From: Nocardia sp. BSTN01
GTDB lineage: Bacteria > Actinomycetota > Actinomycetes > Mycobacteriales > Mycobacteriaceae
DNA: 64,000 nucleotides
Reading direction: 5' to 3'
Assembly (NCBI RefSeq): GCF_015354405.1
Contig: NZ_JADKYP010000017.1
Coordinates: 62,001 to 126,000, forward strand
Part shown: in pieces, positions 21,836 through 29,971 of the stretch
Layout of the letters: every line of letters begins with the position of its first letter
Numbering within the stretch: the stretch's first letter is position 1
The notes under the pieces: model-generated
The model's database searches: none
Seen by the model: the letters and a program-made list of their open reading frames with translations, nothing else
Told to the model about the DNA's origin: nothing
Made by a program: the position numbers and the translations under genes

Positions 21836-22882
21836 TCACAGTTGCGGCTTGGCGACGGAGACCACTTCGGGCAGGTCGCGGACGGTCAGATAGACCCGAT
21901 GCGGGCCCACGGCGATTCCCGACCACGCCGGCGCCTGCGCTTGCCGCACCGGCAGATCGAATCGGCGCAGCACCGGAATGGTTCCGTTCGCATACCCTTC
22001 GAAACTGCGGGTTTCGAGCACCACCAGCTGCCGGTCCGTGGCGGCGTAGATGCGGGTGTCGTCGGTGGCCAGATAGCGGATCGGCGCGCCCAGGTCGACG
22101 GATCCGGCCGTCTCGCTTCCGGATCCGTCGCGACGGGAGTCCAGGGCGATCAGTTCGCCCCCGGGCCGGGCCACATACAACCGGGTGACCTTCGTGCCGT
22201 CCCCCGCGGCCGCGAGGACGGGTTCGTCGTCGGCGCCGGTTTCGTCCGCGGGTGAGGAACTGCCCTTGTAGTGCGCGCTGCCCCGGGGTCCGTAGATGTG
22301 GAACTCCACTTCGCGGCTCCGGTTCGCCCCGTCGAGCCGGGCCTCCGGGCCCGCGTTCACGACCGTCGGCGCCAACGCGGTGCGGCGGTGCAGATCCACC
22401 GGCGTGACCGTGGCGCCGTCCTGCGAGAGCGCCAGCAACATCCGCTCCCCCGAATCGAGGGCCAGATACGACGGCCGCGGCCCCGCGGACAGTGTGCCGG
22501 TATCGACCAGATCGGACAGCCGAATCGAGGCCACCGCCTGCCGATCCGCGGCGCTGACCAGCGCCGTGCCGTCGTCCACCGGACTGATCTGCAGATTCGG
22601 TCCCAGCCCCGACAGGCGTGCCGAGGTGACGGTGTCGCCGCGGCCGTCGGCCAGGCCGTTCACCTTCACGACCCGGTCCGACGCCAGCGCCACGAGCGCG
22701 TCCGACCGGTAGGACCACACCGGGGCGTGCACGATCGCCCCGATCGGTGTCACCCGCACGGCATCGGGCGCTTCCAGTCGCGACCCAGGCGCGGAGCAAC
22801 CGGCGACGGCCAGGACGGCCGCCGCCGGAACCAGATATCGGCGCAGCGCGCGCGTCAGGCGGCCTGGGCCTGCCACATCCAA
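21836..22882 (-). CDS. Lipoprotein with beta-propeller-like repeats
   Basis: A 348-aa exported lipoprotein: basic N-terminus, hydrophobic segment, lipobox LAVAGC (Cys near 29), then a domain of short repeated strands (ALVALASDRVVKVNG, TALVSAADRQAVASI, RIYAATDRQLVVLET) like a beta-propeller or PQQ/WD-type sheet. It probably sits on the outer face of the cytoplasmic membrane. Start TTG 22882 is preceded by GGAG at 8 nt; GTG 22876 is the alternative. Either start lies inside the 3' end of dps (about 20-28 bp overlap), which indicates translational coupling. Ligand unknown. Confidence 0.8.
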   Translation of the reverse strand: MDVAGPGRLTRALRRYLVPAAAVLAVAGCSAPGSRLEAPDAVRVTPIGAIVHAPVWSYRSDALVALASDRVVKVNGLADGRGDTVTSARLSGLGPNLQISPVDDGTALVSAADRQAVASIRLSDLVDTGTLSAGPRPSYLALDSGERMLLALSQDGATVTPVDLHRRTALAPTVVNAGPEARLDGANRSREVEFHIYGPRGSAHYKGSSSPADETGADDEPVLAAAGDGTKVTRLYVARPGGELIALDSRRDGSGSETAGSVDLGAPIRYLATDDTRIYAATDRQLVVLETRSFEGYANGTIPVLRRFDLPVRQAQAPAWSGIAVGPHRVYLTVRDLPEVVSVAKPQL

Positions 22883-23346
22883 TGCAGTTGCTCCAACCGG
22901 GCGGCGATATCGATGAGCAGATCCTGGGTGACCGGATCGGCCTTCTCCGAGGCATCGATCCGCTCACGCAGCCGGCGCACGACCGCGGCCAGGGTGGCGA
23001 CGATCGCCGCGATCACGTCACCGTCCTGCTGCCATCCCGAAGGGAACGATTCCGCGCTGGAACTCTCCGCGACCGTGCGGGCGCGCCCGTCCGGGCTCAC
23101 CCCGATGGCGGTGGCCCGCTCGGCCGCCGCGTCGGTGAAGCCGCGCGCGGTCTCGACCAGTTCGTCCAACGCCAGATGCACGGTGCGGAACCGGGGGCCG
23201 ATCACATTCCAGTGCGCCTGCTTGCCGATCAGGCTCAGATCGATCAGATCGACGACGGTGGCGCACAGCGCGTCACCGGCGATCCGTTGCTGTTCCGGCT
23301 CCAGCACCGTCGCGATCGGATCGGTGGTCGTGGAGGTCTTGGCCAC
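22855..23346 (-). CDS. Dps family DNA-protecting/ferritin-like protein
   Basis: A 163-aa Dps protein with the family core SLIGKQAHWNVIGPRF and HLALDELVE, supplying the inter-subunit ferroxidase His, Asp and Glu, and a C-terminal LEQLHWMWQAQ. It should form a dodecamer that stores iron, consumes H2O2 and coats DNA. ATG 23346 with AAGGAG 8 nt upstream. A consensus SigB-type promoter lies 56 nt upstream. A lipoprotein gene starts within its 3' end and a 116-aa gene follows, so this Dps is the head of a three-gene stress operon. Confidence 0.94.
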   Translation of the reverse strand: MAKTSTTTDPIATVLEPEQQRIAGDALCATVVDLIDLSLIGKQAHWNVIGPRFRTVHLALDELVETARGFTDAAAERATAIGVSPDGRARTVAESSSAESFPSGWQQDGDVIAAIVATLAAVVRRLRERIDASEKADPVTQDLLIDIAARLEQLHWMWQAQAA

Positions 23347-23930: not shown

Positions 23931-25379
23931 GTGCACCGTGAACCCGATCCGCACGGCGACACCGATCCGCGCAGCCCAGCCGACCCTGTCCGCCCCGAGC
24001 CGGCCCCCGGCCGAGCCGCCCGCCGGCTGACCGGACCGCGCGCCGCGGCGGCACTGGCCGATCTGGGCCTGGCACCGGTCGCCGCCGGGGTGATCGCCCG
24101 GCGCCGCGGCATGATGGCGGTGCTGGAACGCCTCGGCGCCGACGACCGTGCGGTCCGCAGGATGCACCGGCTGCGCCGCGAATTCGGCAGCGGGCCGGTA
24201 GAACTGGTGCTGCCGGGGCGGCGGGTGCTGGTGCCGCTGGATCCCGCCGACGTCTCGCGGATACTCGACGGCGCGCCGACTCCGTTCCATCCCGCCAATC
24301 GGGAGAAGATCGCCGCACTGCGCACCTTCCAGCCGCACGGGGTGCTCATCTCCGAGGGCGCGGCCCGCGAACAACGCCGCCGCCTGAACGAACAGGCGCT
24401 CGACACCGACCGGCCGCTGCACCATCTGGCCGATCCGTTCGCCGGGGTGGTCGCCGATGCCGCCCGCGAGCAGATCCGCACCGCGATGCAGCGTGGCGGG
24501 CTGGACGCGGCGCACTTCACCACCGATTGGTGGCGGCTCGTGCGCCGGATCGTGCTGGGCCGCCGTGCGCGCGAGGACGACTCGATCACGGATCGGCTGT
24601 GGCGGCTGCGCGCGGCGGGCAACTGGTCGTACTTCGCGCGGCCGCATCGGCGGCTGCGCGAGCGCTTCTACGAGCAACTCTACGATTACGTGCAGACCGC
24701 CGAAACCGACAGTCTCGCAGGCGCATTGACGCAACTGCCGACAGCGGGCACCGTCGATCCGGTCGGCCAGATCCCGCATTGGCTGTTCGCCTTCGACGCC
24801 GCCGGTATGGCGACCGTCCGCGCTCTCGCCGTCCTGTCCACGCATCCCGAGCAGCTCGCCCGCGCCCGGCTGGACGCGCAGGAACCCGAGCGCGCCATGC
24901 CACGGCCGTATCTGCGTGCCTGCATCCTGGAGTCGGTGCGGCTGTGGCCGACCACCCCGGCAATATTGCGCGACACCACCGAGGACACCGAATGGGGCCG
25001 CGGCGAGGACCGGTTCACCGTGGCCGCGGGCGCGGCCCTGCTCATCCCGGTTCCGGCCTTCCACCGCGACCCCGACACCCTGCCGTTCGCGCACACCTTC
25101 GAACCCGATATCTGGCTCGACGGACGCGCCGAGCGGTACCCGCAGCTGGTGCCGTTCAGCGCCGGGCCGGCCCGGTGTCCCGGTCGCGATCTGGTCCTGT
25201 TCCTCACCACGAGCCTGCTGGCGCATCTGATCGACGAACTGGATCTGGAGCTGCGCTCGCATCCGCGGCCCAGCCCCGAGGCGGCGCTGCCGATCACCTT
25301 CGACAACTTCCGCATCGACTTCACCGCGCGGGCGCGTGCACTGCAAGCGGCGCACTCTTCTTCGCCGGCGGGGAGGTGA
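23931..25379 (+). CDS. Cytochrome P450
   Basis: A 482-aa haem monooxygenase. The Cys-ligand loop is FSAGPARCPGRD (Cys about 416), the K-helix motif ESVRLWPT (ExxR) lies near 330, and the I-helix reads FDAAGMATVRAL, an AG-x-x-T without the usual acidic residue before Thr. The first 40 residues are Pro/Arg-rich. GTG 23931 follows AAAGGAGG. A SigB-type promoter is 29 nt upstream, which is unusual for a P450 and suggests a role in stress-induced lipid or redox chemistry. It is followed 5 nt later by the epimerase at 25385, so the two are an operon. The substrate and redox partners are not visible; no ferredoxin gene is adjacent. Confidence 0.92.
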   Translation: MHREPDPHGDTDPRSPADPVRPEPAPGRAARRLTGPRAAAALADLGLAPVAAGVIARRRGMMAVLERLGADDRAVRRMHRLRREFGSGPVELVLPGRRVLVPLDPADVSRILDGAPTPFHPANREKIAALRTFQPHGVLISEGAAREQRRRLNEQALDTDRPLHHLADPFAGVVADAAREQIRTAMQRGGLDAAHFTTDWWRLVRRIVLGRRAREDDSITDRLWRLRAAGNWSYFARPHRRLRERFYEQLYDYVQTAETDSLAGALTQLPTAGTVDPVGQIPHWLFAFDAAGMATVRALAVLSTHPEQLARARLDAQEPERAMPRPYLRACILESVRLWPTTPAILRDTTEDTEWGRGEDRFTVAAGAALLIPVPAFHRDPDTLPFAHTFEPDIWLDGRAERYPQLVPFSAGPARCPGRDLVLFLTTSLLAHLIDELDLELRSHPRPSPEAALPITFDNFRIDFTARARALQAAHSSSPAGR

Positions 25380-25384
25380 CGGTC

Positions 25385-26464
25385 ATGCGTGTGGTCGTGG
25401 TCGGAGCCACCGGGAACGTCGGCACCGCCGTCGTGTCCGCGCTGGCCCGGCGCCCGGAGATCGACGGGATCGTCGGCCTGGCACGGCGGCTGCCGCGGCA
25501 GCCGGCCGAAGGGGTGCGGTGGGCGCGCGCCGACATGCGCTGCGACGATCTGCTCACCGAATTCCGTGGCGCCGACGTGGTGGTCCATCTCGCGTGGGTG
25601 TTCCAGCCGACGCATCGCCCGCTCGAGACCTGGCGCGCGAACGTGCAGGGAACCGAACGGGTCCTGCGCGCGGTCGCGCAGGCCGGCGTCCCGTCGCTGG
25701 TGTACGCGTCGTCGGTGGGCGCGTATTCCCCTGTGCACCACGATGATCCGGTCGGCGAGGACTGGCCCACGGAAGGCTGGCCGCCGGCCGGGTACATGCG
25801 GGAGAAGGCCTACGTCGAGCGATTGCTCGACCTGTTCGAGAACGAACATCCGGATCGGCGGGTGGTGCGGATGCGCCCCGCCTTCACCTTCCAGGAGGCC
25901 TCCGCCAGCCAACAGCGCCGCCTGTTCGCGGGCCCGCTGGTGCCGGGCAGCGTGCTGCGTCCTCCCCTGATCCCGGTGCTGCCCGTGCCGGCGGGTCTGC
26001 GGCTGCAGGCGGTGCACGCCGACGACATCGGCAGCGCCTACAGCCTCGCCGTCGTCGACCCGAGCGTGCACGGCGCGTTCAACCTGGCCGCCGACCCGGT
26101 GATCGATCGCGCGAAACTCGGCGCGTTGTTCGACGCGCCGACGGTTTCCGTACCGCCCGGGGCCGTGCGCGCCGCATTGGCCGTCGGCTGGCGCCTGCGC
26201 CTGGTCCCCGCCCCGCCCGAACTGTTCGACGCGATGAGGCGCCTGCCGATCATGGACACCACCCGCGCCAGACGCGATCTCGGGTGGGCACCACGCGTCG
26301 ACGCCGTCTCCGCCCTGCGCGAGGTCCTCATCGGAATGAGTCACGGATCCGGCGGCCCCACACCGCCGTTGGCGTCCGACGCCGGTGGGCGTCTGCGGGT
26401 GCGGGAGTTCGCCTCCGGCGTCGGCGGCAGCGACCCGGTCGACCGCTGGGGCGCGGACCTGTGA
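25385..26464 (+). CDS. NAD-dependent epimerase/dehydratase (extended SDR)
   Basis: A 359-aa extended SDR paralogous to the protein at 12319-13383. VGATGNVGTAVVSAL at the N-terminus binds NAD(P), DVVVHLAWVFQ marks strand 4, SSVGAYSP holds the catalytic Ser, and YMREKAYVERLL supplies Tyr and Lys. RMRPAFTFQ and AVHADDIGSAY follow as in nucleotide-sugar epimerases, with a proline-rich acidic tail of 30 residues. ATG 25385, 5 nt after the P450 stop. The P450-epimerase pair suggests modification of one hydrophobic or sugar-like substrate, but that is inference. Confidence 0.88.
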   Translation: MRVVVVGATGNVGTAVVSALARRPEIDGIVGLARRLPRQPAEGVRWARADMRCDDLLTEFRGADVVVHLAWVFQPTHRPLETWRANVQGTERVLRAVAQAGVPSLVYASSVGAYSPVHHDDPVGEDWPTEGWPPAGYMREKAYVERLLDLFENEHPDRRVVRMRPAFTFQEASASQQRRLFAGPLVPGSVLRPPLIPVLPVPAGLRLQAVHADDIGSAYSLAVVDPSVHGAFNLAADPVIDRAKLGALFDAPTVSVPPGAVRAALAVGWRLRLVPAPPELFDAMRRLPIMDTTRARRDLGWAPRVDAVSALREVLIGMSHGSGGPTPPLASDAGGRLRVREFASGVGGSDPVDRWGADL

Positions 26465-26519
26465 GCGTCCGCGGATGCCCCGGCCACACGCTGAACCACG
26501 CGTTTCGCCACCGCGTGGG

Positions 26520-26545
26520 ACCTGTGGGGGATTCACACCACAGGT
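26520..26545 (+). repeat. Inverted repeat in the leader of the Met-rich gene
   Basis: ACCTGTGG (26520-26527) and CCACAGGT (26538-26545) form a perfect 8-bp inverted repeat with a 10-base spacer. The right arm ends 1 nt before the AGGAGG ribosome site of the Met-rich peptide gene. It could be a dyad operator or, in RNA, a hairpin that affects the ribosome site. Confidence 0.6.
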
Positions 26546-26560
26546 AGGAGGTGATCGACG

Positions 26561-26629
26561 ATGTGCATGCAGATGATGGCGATGATGCGCAACATGTGGA
26601 ACATGATGTTCCCGATGATGCCCATGTAA
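26561..26629 (+). CDS. Methionine-rich 22-residue peptide
   Basis: ATG 26561 to TAA 26627-26629 gives 22 residues, of which 12 are Met (positions 1, 3, 5, 6, 8, 9, 12, 15, 16, 19, 20 and 22), with one Cys (2), one Trp (13), one Phe, two Pro and a single Arg. The ribosome site AGGAGGTGAT (26547-26556), 4 nt before the ATG, matches the 16S 3' end over ten bases, far better than most genes here, and TAA is otherwise rare in this window. The Met pattern (MM pairs every 3-4 residues) resembles Cu(I)-binding Met motifs of CopC/CtrN/CusF-type proteins and could make a membrane-inserting helix. No homologue is known to me. Expression is not shown by the sequence alone. Confidence 0.62.
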   Translation: MCMQMMAMMRNMWNMMFPMMPM

Positions 26630-26677
26630 TCCGGACGACGGGAGAGCGAACCACGCCGGATCGTCGTCGGCGCCGTG

Positions 26678-27622
26678 CTACCCGGGAGCGTTGACCTCGT
26701 CCGGCGTCTTGTCCGGCCGCAATCCGCGCCAGGACGGGTGACGCAAGCGCCCGTCCCCGGTCCGCTCCGTGAACGACACCTCGCCCACCAGTACGGGTTC
26801 CACCCAGATCGCGTCCTTCACCGGTGCCACGACCGTGGGGCTCTGCCGTCGCAGCGGCCGCAGCTTGGCCTGCAGATCGTCGAGCATGGCCTGGGTGAAG
26901 CCGGTGCCCACGTTGCCGATGTAGACCAATTCCCCCGTCTCGTCGTGCACGCCCATGAGCAGTGAGCCGATGCGTCCCGCGCGCCGGCCCGCGCCGGGCC
27001 GCCACCCGACGATGACGATCTCCTGATCGTTGACGTTCTTGACCTTCGTCCACAGTGGACTGCGCCGGCCGGGAAGATACGGACTGTCCAGCCGCTTGCA
27101 CACGATGCCCTCGAGTCCCAGCCGCGCCGATTCGGCGAGGACGTCGGTGCCGCTGCCGGTCAGCCGGGGCGGAATGCGCCAGCTCGGGCCGCGCAAGCCG
27201 AGTTGTTCCAGCAAATGGCGGCGTTGCTCGTAGGGCAGATCGATCAGCGGCCGGTCGCCGATGTGCAGCAGGTCGAAGATGAGGTAGGTGGCGGGGACCG
27301 AGCGGGTCAGTGCGCGGATCATGGCCGGATTGCGCTGGTGCATGCGCGGTTGCAGTGCGGTGAAGGAGGTACGCCCGTCCGCGGCGAAGGCGACGATTTC
27401 GCCGTCGACGACGATCGGCGGCGCCGCCGGGGCGAGATCGGCGAGTTCCGGCCAGGCAGCGGTCACGTCGTTGCCGTTGCGCGAGATCAGTCGCAATTCC
27501 CGATCGACGTAACCGATGGCGCGGATACCGTCGAATTTCACCTCGTACGCCCACGCCGCACTGTCGGCGGGCAGAGCACCGGCCGTCGCCAGCATCGCCG
27601 CATACCGCGGCAATCCGCTCAT
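26678..27622 (-). CDS. ATP-dependent DNA ligase, LigC/LigD ligase-domain type
   Basis: A 314-aa ligase consisting of the adenylation and OB domains only. EVKFDGIRAIGYV (residues 28-40) is motif I with the AMP-accepting Lys; SRNGND is motif III; EIVAF motif IIIa; GIVCKRLDSPY motif IV; and WTKVKN motif V. The C-terminal VGEVSFTERTGDGRLRHPSWRGLRPDK is a LigD/LigC-type ending. There is no polymerase or nuclease domain and no ku gene nearby, so it is a stand-alone repair ligase (LigC-like). Start ATG 27622; an in-frame ATG at 27643 is the alternative. It converges on the Met-rich peptide gene with 48 nt between stops. A GGGTAG box at 27661-27666 (minus strand) with a weak -35 may be its promoter. 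Confidence 0.9.
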   Translation of the reverse strand: MSGLPRYAAMLATAGALPADSAAWAYEVKFDGIRAIGYVDRELRLISRNGNDVTAAWPELADLAPAAPPIVVDGEIVAFAADGRTSFTALQPRMHQRNPAMIRALTRSVPATYLIFDLLHIGDRPLIDLPYEQRRHLLEQLGLRGPSWRIPPRLTGSGTDVLAESARLGLEGIVCKRLDSPYLPGRRSPLWTKVKNVNDQEIVIVGWRPGAGRRAGRIGSLLMGVHDETGELVYIGNVGTGFTQAMLDDLQAKLRPLRRQSPTVVAPVKDAIWVEPVLVGEVSFTERTGDGRLRHPSWRGLRPDKTPDEVNAPG

Positions 27623-27761
27623 CAGAACCCACCCTTCAATCAATGGCTACTTCTCGGTTACTACCCTGAAATCCTCCTCTTACAGCACAGACGACGTTGA
27701 CATTTCGGTCACGACCCGACCTCGCAACCACCCGATTGACCGACCGAACCGCAATTCCGTA

Positions 27762-27875
27762 TGGTTGTGCGAGCGACGATTCGAGGAATCCGGCGAAAAT
27801 CCGGGACGGTCGCGCCACTGTGAGCCTTTCCGCCGGGCGGAAAGCGAGTCAGATACTCGGATCGCGCGGTAACCA
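27762..27875 (+). ncRNA. Cobalamin riboswitch
   Basis: The leader of cbtB has the signature of the AdoCbl/cobalamin aptamer: closing bases TGGTT (27762-27766) pairing with AACCA (27871-27875), the conserved GGAATCCGGCGAAAATCCGG (27785-27804, P4-P5 loops), GCCACTG (27814-27820), and the B12-box-like AGCGAGTCAGATAC (27843-27856). It therefore should sense adenosyl- or hydroxocobalamin and control the cobalt importer below it. A short stem just before the ribosome site (27884-27902) is the probable expression platform. Confidence 0.9.
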
Positions 27876-27883
27876 CCATCGAG

Positions 27884-27902
27884 CGGGGACGCGCAATCCC
27901 CG
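27884..27902 (+). promoter_or_regulatory. Ribosome-site hairpin (riboswitch expression platform)
   Basis: CGGGGA (27884-27889) pairs with TCCCCG (27897-27902). The right arm runs into the ribosome site GGAGGAG (27902-27908) ahead of the cbtB ATG at 27915. This fits a translational ON/OFF switch; no oligo-U terminator is present. Confidence 0.6.
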
Positions 27903-27914
27903 GAGGAGAGTCAC

Positions 27915-28130
27915 ATGGCGACGTCCTATGTTCCCCGGTCCGGCCTGGAGTCGATTCGACTCTCCATTCCCACGACGGCCCTGTGGCTGGGCGGCACCAC
28001 CGTCCTGGCTCTGCTCGCCCTCTACTTCATCGGTATCGATCAGGGCGCGGTCTCGATCTTCGGCGACGATATGCACGTGCACGAATTCGTCCACGACGCA
28101 CGGCATTTCCTCGGCTACCCCTGCCACTGA
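27915..28130 (+). CDS. cbtB: CbtB cobalt transporter subunit
   Basis: A 71-aa membrane protein with one transmembrane helix (residues 22-45) and a histidine-rich C-terminal tail (DDMHVHEFVHDARHFLGYPCH) that should bind Co2+ outside. This one-helix plus His-tail layout is diagnostic of CbtB. ATG 27915 follows a cobalamin riboswitch and its ribosome site. It works with CbtA, encoded 21 nt downstream, as a cobalt uptake system that supplies cobalamin synthesis; B12 should repress it. Confidence 0.93.
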   Translation: MATSYVPRSGLESIRLSIPTTALWLGGTTVLALLALYFIGIDQGAVSIFGDDMHVHEFVHDARHFLGYPCH

Positions 28131-28151
28131 CCGCAGGATCGAGCCCCCACA

Positions 28152-29006
28152 ATGGAAAAACGAATCATCGCCCGCGGCGTGCTGGTCGGCGCCATCGGCG
28201 GGCTGCTGGCCTTCGTGTTCGCGCGGATTCTGGCCGAGCCGATCATCGATCGCGCCATCGCTTACGAGGGCGGGCGCGACGAGGCGCACACGACACTCGA
28301 GCAGGCCGCCGGTCACTCGATGACCGGTATGGAAGAGGGCGAACTGTTCACCAGATCGGTGCAGGCGAGTATCGGCGTCGGCTTCGGCATGATCGTGTTC
28401 GGCGCGGCGATGGGTGCGCTGTTCGCGGTCGTGTACTGCCTGTTCGTGGGCCGCGTCGGATCGTTGAGCCCGCGCAATCTCGCGCTGTGCGTGGCGGGCG
28501 GCATGTTCGGCGTGCTGTACGCCGTGCCGTTCTTCAAGTATCCGGCCAATCCGCCCTCGATCGGCAATCCCGACACGATCGGGCAACGCACCGGCCTGTA
28601 CCTGTCGATGGTGGTGATCGCCGCGGTCTGCGCGATGGGCGCCGTGTGGCTGGGCCGAACACTGCAAGCGCGCCTGGGCAATTGGACGGCGACCATCGCC
28701 GCGGGCCTGGCCTTCGTCGTCGTGGTGACCGCGATCGCCGCGCTGCTGCCCTCACTCGGGCATCTGGCCGCCAACCGGGCCCTGGGCGACGCGGCCACCG
28801 AAACACCGCGGCCGCTCACCGATTCGAACGGCCGGATCGTCTATCCGGGCTTCCCCGCCGACGATCTGTACTACTTCCGCTTCTATTCCCTTGCCGCACA
28901 GGTCATTCTGTGGTCGGTCATCGGAGTGGGGTTCGCGACGCTGGCGCCGCGGCTGTTCCAGCGCGCGGACGACTCCGGCGCGGCCGCGCCGGCAGCGGCG
29001 GTATGA
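28152..29006 (+). CDS. cbtA: CbtA cobalt transporter subunit
   Basis: A 284-aa membrane protein with five to six transmembrane helices, starting GVLVGAIGGLLAFVFARI. It has the CbtA features: an external loop with HTTLEQAAGHS, FKYPANPPSIGNPDTIGQRT between helices 3 and 4, and SLAAQVILWSVIGVGFATL at the last helix. It forms the channel-like partner of CbtB for cobalt uptake. ATG 28152, 21 nt after cbtB. Its stop overlaps the ATG of the histidine phosphatase (ATGA). Regulated with cbtB by the cobalamin riboswitch. Confidence 0.93.
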   Translation: MEKRIIARGVLVGAIGGLLAFVFARILAEPIIDRAIAYEGGRDEAHTTLEQAAGHSMTGMEEGELFTRSVQASIGVGFGMIVFGAAMGALFAVVYCLFVGRVGSLSPRNLALCVAGGMFGVLYAVPFFKYPANPPSIGNPDTIGQRTGLYLSMVVIAAVCAMGAVWLGRTLQARLGNWTATIAAGLAFVVVVTAIAALLPSLGHLAANRALGDAATETPRPLTDSNGRIVYPGFPADDLYYFRFYSLAAQVILWSVIGVGFATLAPRLFQRADDSGAAAPAAAV

Positions 29007-29560
29007 GCGCGACCGTCACCCGGCTCACGCTGATCAGCCACGGCATGACCGCCGCGATGCGGTCGGCCCGCTTCCCCGTCGACGAACCGCTCGACGAGCT
29101 GCCCCGCGGCGCCGCCTCCCCCGCGGCGCCGCCGGCCGACCGGGTCCTGGCCGCCCCGGAGCTGCGGGCGACCGCGACCGCCACCCTGCTGACGCTGCGG
29201 GCCACCGTCGAACCCGCCCTGCGCGACCTCGACTGCGGCGACTGGGCGGGCAGGCCGATGGACACCCTGGACCCGGCCGACCTCATGTCCTGGATGACCG
29301 ATCCCGCCTACCGCGGCCACGGCGGTGAAGCGATCACCGACCTGCTCGACCGGGTACGCGGCTGGCTCGACACGGTGGTCGCCGACCGACGCCGCATCGT
29401 CGCGATCACCCATCCCGCGGTCGTCCGCGCGAGCGTTCTGCTCGCCCTCGCCGCACCGCCGGAATCGTTCTGGCGCATGGACATTCCGCCGCTGAGTGCC
29501 ACCACACTGCACAGCCGCGGCCCGGCCTGGACCGTGCGGCACACCGCGAATCCGCTCTGA
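29003..29560 (+). CDS. Histidine phosphatase family protein (CobC-like)
   Basis: A 185-aa phosphoglycerate-mutase-superfamily protein. The usual RHG motif reads LISHGMTAAMRS, i.e. Ser replaces the Arg before the catalytic His, while the later ITHPAVVR still carries the second His. A central DLDCGDWAGRPMDTL is the acid region. It starts at ATG 29003 inside the cbtA stop, so it belongs to the riboswitch operon. That context makes it likely to act in cobalamin synthesis (CobC, alpha-ribazole-5'-phosphate phosphatase, or a related step). The S-for-R change may lower activity or alter specificity. Confidence 0.8.
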   Translation: MSATVTRLTLISHGMTAAMRSARFPVDEPLDELPRGAASPAAPPADRVLAAPELRATATATLLTLRATVEPALRDLDCGDWAGRPMDTLDPADLMSWMTDPAYRGHGGEAITDLLDRVRGWLDTVVADRRRIVAITHPAVVRASVLLALAAPPESFWRMDIPPLSATTLHSRGPAWTVRHTANPL

Positions 29561-29590
29561 GATCGCGCGGCGCGGCCGTGCCGGTCCACC

Positions 29591-29971
29591 TCAGTGCGGC
29601 GCCGACTTCTTCTCGACCAGATCGGCGAGCACCGCTGCCTCGCTGATGTCGATCCGCTTGGTGGCCGACAACAGAGTGAGCATGCCGCGCCCGGCCAGTT
29701 CGCGAAGATGATCCAGGTCGGCGGCGCGCTCCGGATCGTGCAGTTCCTCCCGGTAGCGGCGGCCGAATTCGTCGAATTTGGCGGGGTCGTGGCCGTACCA
29801 GGTGCGCAGTTCGGTGGAGGGCGCGATCGTTTTGCACCATTCGTCGAGGTGGGCGTTCTCCTTGCTCATCCCGCGCGGCCAGAGGCGATCGACCAGCACT
29901 CGCATCCCGTCGTCGGGATCGGGATCGTCGTAGATCCGCCGGACCTGGACTCGCGGTCGTGTGCTCGCCAT
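29591..29971 (-). CDS. DUF488 family protein
   Basis: A 126-aa soluble protein typical of DUF488 (YeaO type): VRRIYDDPDPDDGMRVLVDRL, WPRGMSKENAHLDEW, PAKFDEFGRRYREEL and LTLLSATKRIDISEA. Length is normal. ATG at 29971; the longer open frame would add an improbable Arg-rich N-terminus. RBS AAGGGAGC upstream. Homologues are conserved and uncharacterised. It converges on the riboswitch operon with 30 nt between stops and is transcribed alone. Confidence 0.85.
   Translation of the reverse strand: MASTRPRVQVRRIYDDPDPDDGMRVLVDRLWPRGMSKENAHLDEWCKTIAPSTELRTWYGHDPAKFDEFGRRYREELHDPERAADLDHLRELAGRGMLTLLSATKRIDISEAAVLADLVEKKSAPH

Follow-up and report, generated by a model that had tools for sequence, protein, structure and literature searches.

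A methionine-rich mini-ORF with a strong ribosome-binding site

Does a frame of only 22 codons, 12 of them for Met, encode a real peptide, and what could such a peptide do? We addressed this question for an ORF at 26561..26629 (+) of a 64-kb window, the whole stretch of Nocardia DNA analyzed here. Its translation, MCMQMMAMMRNMWNMMFPMMPM, starts with the ATG at 26561, is closed by a TAA ending at 26629 and contains 12 Met, one Cys and one Trp in 22 residues, in agreement with a first-pass annotation made from the letters alone. That annotation had also described a ten-base Shine–Dalgarno (SD) sequence, among the strongest in the window, 4 nt before the start codon. The SD, AGGAGGTGAT (26546..26555, +), proved to be the single exact copy on both strands of the 64-kb window, with 0.02 expected in shuffled sequences; the spacer to the ATG is CGACG and, thus, 5 nt instead of 4 nt. 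Among 60 sequences of 64 kb simulated from a first-order Markov model of the window, ORFs of up to 40 codons held at most six Met. Together with the orthologs, family copies, conserved residues and selection described below, this Met count led us to reject a chance ORF.

The SD is abutted by a perfect 8-bp inverted repeat, ACCTGTGG / CCACAGGT (26520..26545), located as annotated before the SD, with arms at 26520-26527 and 26538-26545 and a 10-nt spacer. Conservation of the repeat is partial; it is kept in the orthologs from genomes G112 and G002, retains six of eight pairs in G117 and is lost in G035. We rejected a conserved operator because of the loss in G035, although G112 and G002 keep the repeat. 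A 7-bp inverted repeat further upstream (CCACGCG / CGCGTGG, 26496..26518) lies within a block conserved among five orthologs, and this block may represent the promoter region of the window copy, without a SigB-type box. On the 3' side of the ORF, the inverted repeat GACGACG / CGTCGTC (26634..26668, +) is a weak candidate terminator, with no significant folding downstream of the window copy (z −1.0). An Rfam scan of 25300-29600 detected no known RNA at the ORF. Elsewhere in the window, the 27783-29006 region includes a cobalamin-riboswitch-like element that scores 31.3 bits against a cut-off of 31.5 and precedes the cobalt transporter genes for CbtB (27915-28130) and CbtA (28152-29006).

A peptide family of Nocardia and one related genus

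A profile built from 15 peptides (A1) recovered 58 copies (E ≤ 8.8e-4), distributed over 48 of the 151 Nocardia genomes, with eight genomes carrying two or three copies each. The 58 were drawn from 69 matches, the others being two pieces of a split Nocardia paucivorans copy and nine hits (E 0.07–0.92) that were left out. Members range from 22 to 34 residues, and 44 of the 58 copies have an SD match of at least eight bases, a number to be read with the caveat that two start codons were set by hand and the others partly by SD match. At the DNA level, comparison of a 226-bp region with 60 genomes (the window's own, 35 of the same genus and 24 of the same order) gave near-full-length alignments in G002, G035 and the own genome, while a strong match spanned the ORF in eight more genomes of the genus and included the SD bases in three of them. 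When 84,980 species genomes were scanned with a DNA pattern, all 31 stretches returned came from Nocardia. With 58 family copies across Nocardia genomes, the annotated peptide corresponds to a genuine conserved gene, and the protein family that it represents is confined, among the genomes searched, to Nocardia and a single related genus.

Searches beyond the genus were consistent with this narrow distribution. In an order-level sample, seven of 298 genomes, including two Nocardia, matched at E ≤ 0.1; in a phylum-level sample, four of 396 matched at E ≤ 0.05, including the window's own. Genomes other than Nocardia contributed eight weak matches to these two samples; each was inspected and judged to be chance. 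A broader profile of 28 peptides (A2), applied to 401 genomes spanning 31 genera of the taxonomic family, matched 18 at E ≤ 0.01, comprising 17 Nocardia and G842 from another genus, with the peptide MMWPQMMAMFRTWWNHMFPMWPM preceded by GAGGAGGTGAGC. After addition of the G842 peptide (profile A3), three of 121 G842 relatives matched, namely, G842, one Nocardia and, weakly, G392 (E 0.0175), and the window's own genome was the one match among 335 genomes of the class.

Profiles from NCBIfam, Pfam, PHROGs and PADLOC did not match the window peptide; for other family members, the only matches had E values of at least 0.07 in Pfam and of 0.16 in PHROGs. Searching PDB sequences with a profile yielded two matches, both at chance level (E 0.92 and 0.93), and did not return CusF, the periplasmic Cu(I)/Ag(I) chaperone discussed below. 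The family is missing from the profile libraries searched because it is so short. No described relative was recognized in a literature search covering parts of the published texts. The first-pass annotation knew of no comparable family, and the searches of NCBIfam, Pfam, PHROGs, PADLOC and the PDB sequences bear this out; the family was previously unnamed.

A phage or plasmid origin was rejected; a phage search with one peptide was empty, a single Sinorhizobium plasmid match was weak (E 0.3) and a pattern match in a viral contig (L142, 5484-5513, −), reading WNAMFPEMPM in frame inside a 548-aa ORF, was taken as chance. A second pattern had zero matches in viral contigs.

Could the product be a type I toxin-like or otherwise membrane-perturbing peptide, kept in check by a regulator or an antisense RNA? 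Members are tiny, hydrophobic and patchily distributed, occur as multiple copies in the eight genomes mentioned and include two on a second contig of 175 kb in G150. However, no long transmembrane stretch is visible by eye, seven peptides have net charges of only −1 to +1 and the strong ribosome site is exposed, and we give this reading little credence. The two copies on the second contig (L115 and L116 on G150:C2, 174.6 kb) are flanked by the same genes, oppositely oriented; a third copy in this genome sits on the large contig.

A fixed frame with replaceable methionines

Residue conservation was counted in 41 distinct cores drawn from the 58 copies, with the consensus Q..M-x-R-x-x-W-N-x-M-F-P-x-M-P-M. 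Arg, the first Pro and Met(+10) are present in all 41 cores, Met(−2) and Met(+12) in 40, Gln(−6) and Trp(+3) in 39, Asn(+4) and Phe(+7) in 38, Met(+6) in 37, the second Pro in 36 and Met(−4) in 33. Thus, M(−2), M(+6), M(+10) and M(+12) are near-invariant, and there is no invariant His or Cys; none of the 46 distinct peptides from Nocardia contains His, and Cys(−8) appears in just 16 of 41 cores. In the other-genus relative G842, Met(+10) is replaced by Trp.

About half (six of 12) of the Met positions in the window peptide vary across the family. Position −7 is Met in 20 of 41 cores and otherwise mostly Asp or Glu, position −5 is Met in 26, with Ile and Leu as alternatives, position −1 is Met in three, with Ala and Leu as alternatives, position +2 is Met in 18 and Trp in 19, position +5 is Met in 20, with Arg, Gln and Ser as alternatives, and position +9 is Met in four, with Gly and Asn as alternatives. 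Nevertheless, Met accounts for 37% of residues in the 46 distinct peptides versus 1.9% in background ORFs. Met as such is favored, yet the fixed frame is M-x-R-x-x-W-N-x-M-F-P-x-M-P-M. An amphipathic helix part was significant (P < 0.05) in 23 of the 46 distinct peptides but not in the window peptide (P 0.20). Certain members end in Met-Pro tails or repeat an FPGMPM unit, and this C-terminal unit is duplicated or extended in L117 and L131.

These patterns bear on the proposal, made in the first-pass annotation, that the peptide buffers Cu(I) or Ag(I). Such a soft-metal buffer would bind the ions through Met and the near-invariant Trp, with some resemblance to CusF, whose Met site is capped by a Trp. 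The enrichment in Met and the Met-Pro tails fit, as does W-N-x-M-F-P-x-M-P-M, where a Trp three residues before a Met (W-x-x-M) and an M-x-M pair recall the spacing of W44, M47 and M49 in CusF as given in the available portion of PMC6235853. CusF differs in being a periplasmic chaperone with a Met2His site; the window peptide has 22 residues and lacks His, Cys(−8) is inconstant, the G842 relative has a Trp for Met(+10), and export signals or signal-peptide-like starts are not visible by eye in the peptides. Only about five Met positions are kept, while six of those in the window peptide are often replaced by Asp, Ile, Leu, Ala, Trp, Arg, Gln, Gly or Asn. With the Cu(I)-binding, Met-rich segments of CopC/CusB-type proteins, cited in the first-pass annotation, the family shares a high Met density; it differs from these in that half of the window's Met are replaceable and that its fixed residues include Arg, Trp, Asn and Pro. 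A further point against soft-metal buffering is that thioether-only Cu(I) sites are weak compared with cytosolic thiols. Similarly, the Met-rich site of CupA is its low-affinity one, according to the accessible part of PMC7558416.

Selection on the peptide and loss of the gene

Uncorrected pN/pS values, computed on 26 of the 58 copies, were 0.22 for ortholog group A (11 sequences), 0.07 for group B (six of 11) and 0.23 for group D (four sequences); purifying selection at the protein level is, thus, evident in these three groups. The window's own group C (five sequences) has 18 nonsynonymous and zero synonymous pairwise differences, and because of this lack of synonymous differences it has no selection ratio. 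In these five orthologs, the 18 differences fall on 690 pairwise ORF sites as opposed to 48 on about 600 in the next 60 nt; group C, therefore, reveals slower change in the ORF than in the flank and nothing more. Its substitutions sit at family-variable positions.

A frame broken in close relatives had been named as evidence against a functional gene. The outcome of this check was mixed: among eight genomes in which the neighboring ligase is at least 95% identical, the window's genome included, the frame is intact in five and disrupted or absent in three. G064 keeps the upstream part as far as ATGTGCATG and then continues with other sequence, resulting in a broken frame. The gene is missing at this site in G123, which has a long minus-strand ORF there, and in G125, where the epimerase gene runs straight into the ligase flank. 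In two loci from related species (L182 and L183) compared with window positions 26522-26682, a minus-strand ORF that resembles a membrane protein by eye lies between epimerase and ligase, an interval in which the window carries the peptide gene alone. The N. paucivorans copy (L141; G128:C3:10184-12476) is split by about 2.2 kb of inserted DNA, presumably an IS21-type element. Absence of the family from about two thirds of the searched Nocardia genomes, along with its breakage in some, marks the peptide gene as dispensable, as judged from genome content.

Probable SigB-type promoters in many members

Upstream of many family ORFs, a GGGTA motif recurs. It lies at −42 to −60 in 20 of 26 loci, hand-picked representatives of the 58 copies that underlie the promoter and terminator counts, as compared with four of 26 on the reverse strand, a mean of 3.2 of 26 (maximum 10) in 2000 shuffles and 100 of 873 other genes (within 110 nt). 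Across all copies, GGGTA is present within −62..−38 in 35 of 58, versus 44 of 3536 tiled windows. Some of the 26 loci are related: flanks are common to L127/L135 and to L110/L122, and the pairs L127/L129 and L091/L113 have neighbor genes in common, in another order. Dropping one of each flank-sharing pair left the motif in 19 of 24 loci. When the 20 sequences were aligned on GGGTA, G was found at −19 in 17, A or T at −17 in 18 and T at −16 in 16. The exact combination GNNT-N14..16-GGGTA is present at 15 of the 26 loci versus 37 of 873 genes, and at 27 of all 58 copies. The motif was first noticed by eye in the same loci in which it was later counted, and the only outside test is, therefore, G842, which was not used for motif finding and carries GTGT-N15-GGGTA with GGGTA at −49.

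According to the portion of PMC8346170 available, Streptomyces SigB homologs recognize GNNT or GTTT as the −35 element and a GGGTAT-like −10 element. Many family members share GNNT and GGGTA at similar spacing with such SigB/SigF regulon genes of actinobacteria, including those of the S. coelicolor SigB homologs (PMC8346170, same portion), and differ from them in being linked to the regulon by promoter resemblance alone. This strongly suggests that many members belong to a SigB/SigF-type general stress regulon. GGGTA within −62..−38 is missing at 23 of 58 copies, including all 11 of group A and all five of the window's group. Within 110 nt upstream, none of the five sequences comprising the window copy and its orthologs has GGGTA, and the window copy lacks a recognizable SigB-type promoter. 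A link to stress had originally been drawn from the genes around the window ORF, among them an ORF at 22855-23346 (−) that, by eye, we take to be Dps-type-like. The link gained support for the family through its promoters, but not for the window copy.

The stress-type promoters at many loci and the extreme Met content would both suit a methionine-oxidation sink, a cheap stress peptide that absorbs oxidants and that methionine sulfoxide reductases regenerate. This scheme leaves the fixed Arg, Trp, Asn, Phe and Pro unexplained, and half of the Met positions in the window peptide vary freely; we regard it as improbable. General-stress promoters, as distinct from metal-type control, also count against the soft-metal buffer.

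Diverse neighborhoods and downstream regions

As delineated with our own simple gene caller, family copies occupy many different neighborhoods, and no general partner gene family was found across loci. Pfam names among 39 scanned neighbors comprised NicO, DUF2231, TetR, DUF305, K+ transporter, GTP cyclohydrolase I, NAD-dependent ligase, ANTAR/PAS, sigma-70 factor, hemerythrin, AraC, MerR, MerB, CMAS, STAS and Transgly_assoc. Some recur, such as DUF2231 at groups A and E, GTP cyclohydrolase I at L110 and L122, and an AraC regulator plus an MFS-like transporter (by eye) beside the peptide at L091/L093 and L113 in differing order and orientation. AMP-binding enzymes at L138 and L140 are 26–37% alike with that of L124, and L127 and L129 have two genes in common. 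A P450 upstream of the window ORF raised the idea of a RiPP precursor, which was rejected; the P450 cluster occurs at four of 58 loci, all in group C, and the window P450 is the sole one among the 39 scanned neighbors.

Metal-related genes adjoin some groups. A DUF305-cluster gene lies 3' of all 11 group B copies (one scanned; L104 8413-9033 and orthologs), a NicO-cluster gene 5' of ten of 11 group A copies (one scanned), MerR and MerB genes beside one copy, and CbtAB near the window copy. These neighbors favor a soft-metal buffer, and their restriction to some groups speaks against it. With half of the Met positions replaceable and metal genes beside some groups only, the metal role originally put forward is not supported; judged from residues and gene context, Cu(I)/Ag(I) buffering by the peptide is possible but, in our estimation, unlikely.

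At 11 of 26 loci, the closest gene downstream shares the strand of the peptide ORF; at 15, including the window, it lies on the opposite strand, as assigned by the same gene caller. At all 11 group B and ten of 11 group A loci, a same-strand gene follows that starts about 120–450 nt past the ORF start. Strong hairpins lie 3' of the stop at several loci, and the mean downstream folding z was −1.43 compared with −0.55 for 146 control genes, a modest difference. Tiny ORFs rich in one sulfur amino acid are known from the Cys-rich leader peptides of mycobacteria, from which the family differs in lacking a same-strand next gene at 15 of 26 loci. A Met-rich ORF followed by hairpins and, in groups A and B, a same-strand gene could be a leader peptide that acts as a Met-sensing attenuator for the downstream gene. 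The 15 opposite-strand downstream genes led us to reject this as a general model, a rejection that does not extend to groups A and B taken alone. Given also the fixed non-Met residues and low pN/pS, we consider an attenuator barely credible.

A possible Met-faced stress microprotein

The interpretation that we favor, with confidence just short of even, is a stand-alone stress mini-gene encoding a docking, Met-faced microprotein that is SigB/SigF-linked in many members. The unit would consist of a strong ribosome site, the tiny ORF and, at several loci, a hairpin after the ORF. The first ~16 residues would form an amphipathic, Met-faced helix, followed by a Pro-containing Met tail, and the helix might dock on a membrane surface or a partner protein. 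Fixed Arg, Trp-Asn and Phe-Pro-x-Met-Pro-Met would confer specificity, while the flexible, oxidizable Met face could provide adaptable and possibly redox-tuned binding. The window copy would encode the same kind of peptide, but without a recognizable SigB-type promoter. A bolder version, which we deem decidedly unlikely, is an undescribed class of general-stress effectors, in which leaderless Met-faced microproteins encoded in ~200-bp promoter–ORF–terminator mini-genes would have spread within one bacterial lineage, be switched by Met oxidation or a soft metal and dock on a specific target through R/W-N/F-P. If translated, the peptides would add an unstudied Met-rich microprotein to the Nocardia stress response and offer a clean test of what Met-rich faces do inside cells. 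The family was read first from raw sequence and later supported by orthologs, selection and promoters.

Similarities between otherwise different loci

Several flanks resemble each other across loci. L110 and L122 represent two subfamilies that follow GTP cyclohydrolase I at apparently the same genomic site in different species. L122 and L127, without a detected common flank, both carry a GACTGGACAG/CTGTCCAGTC stem. Lastly, the upstream flank of L138 has 105–143 nt of similarity to the downstream flank of L086 and the upstream flank of L122, the loci being otherwise different.
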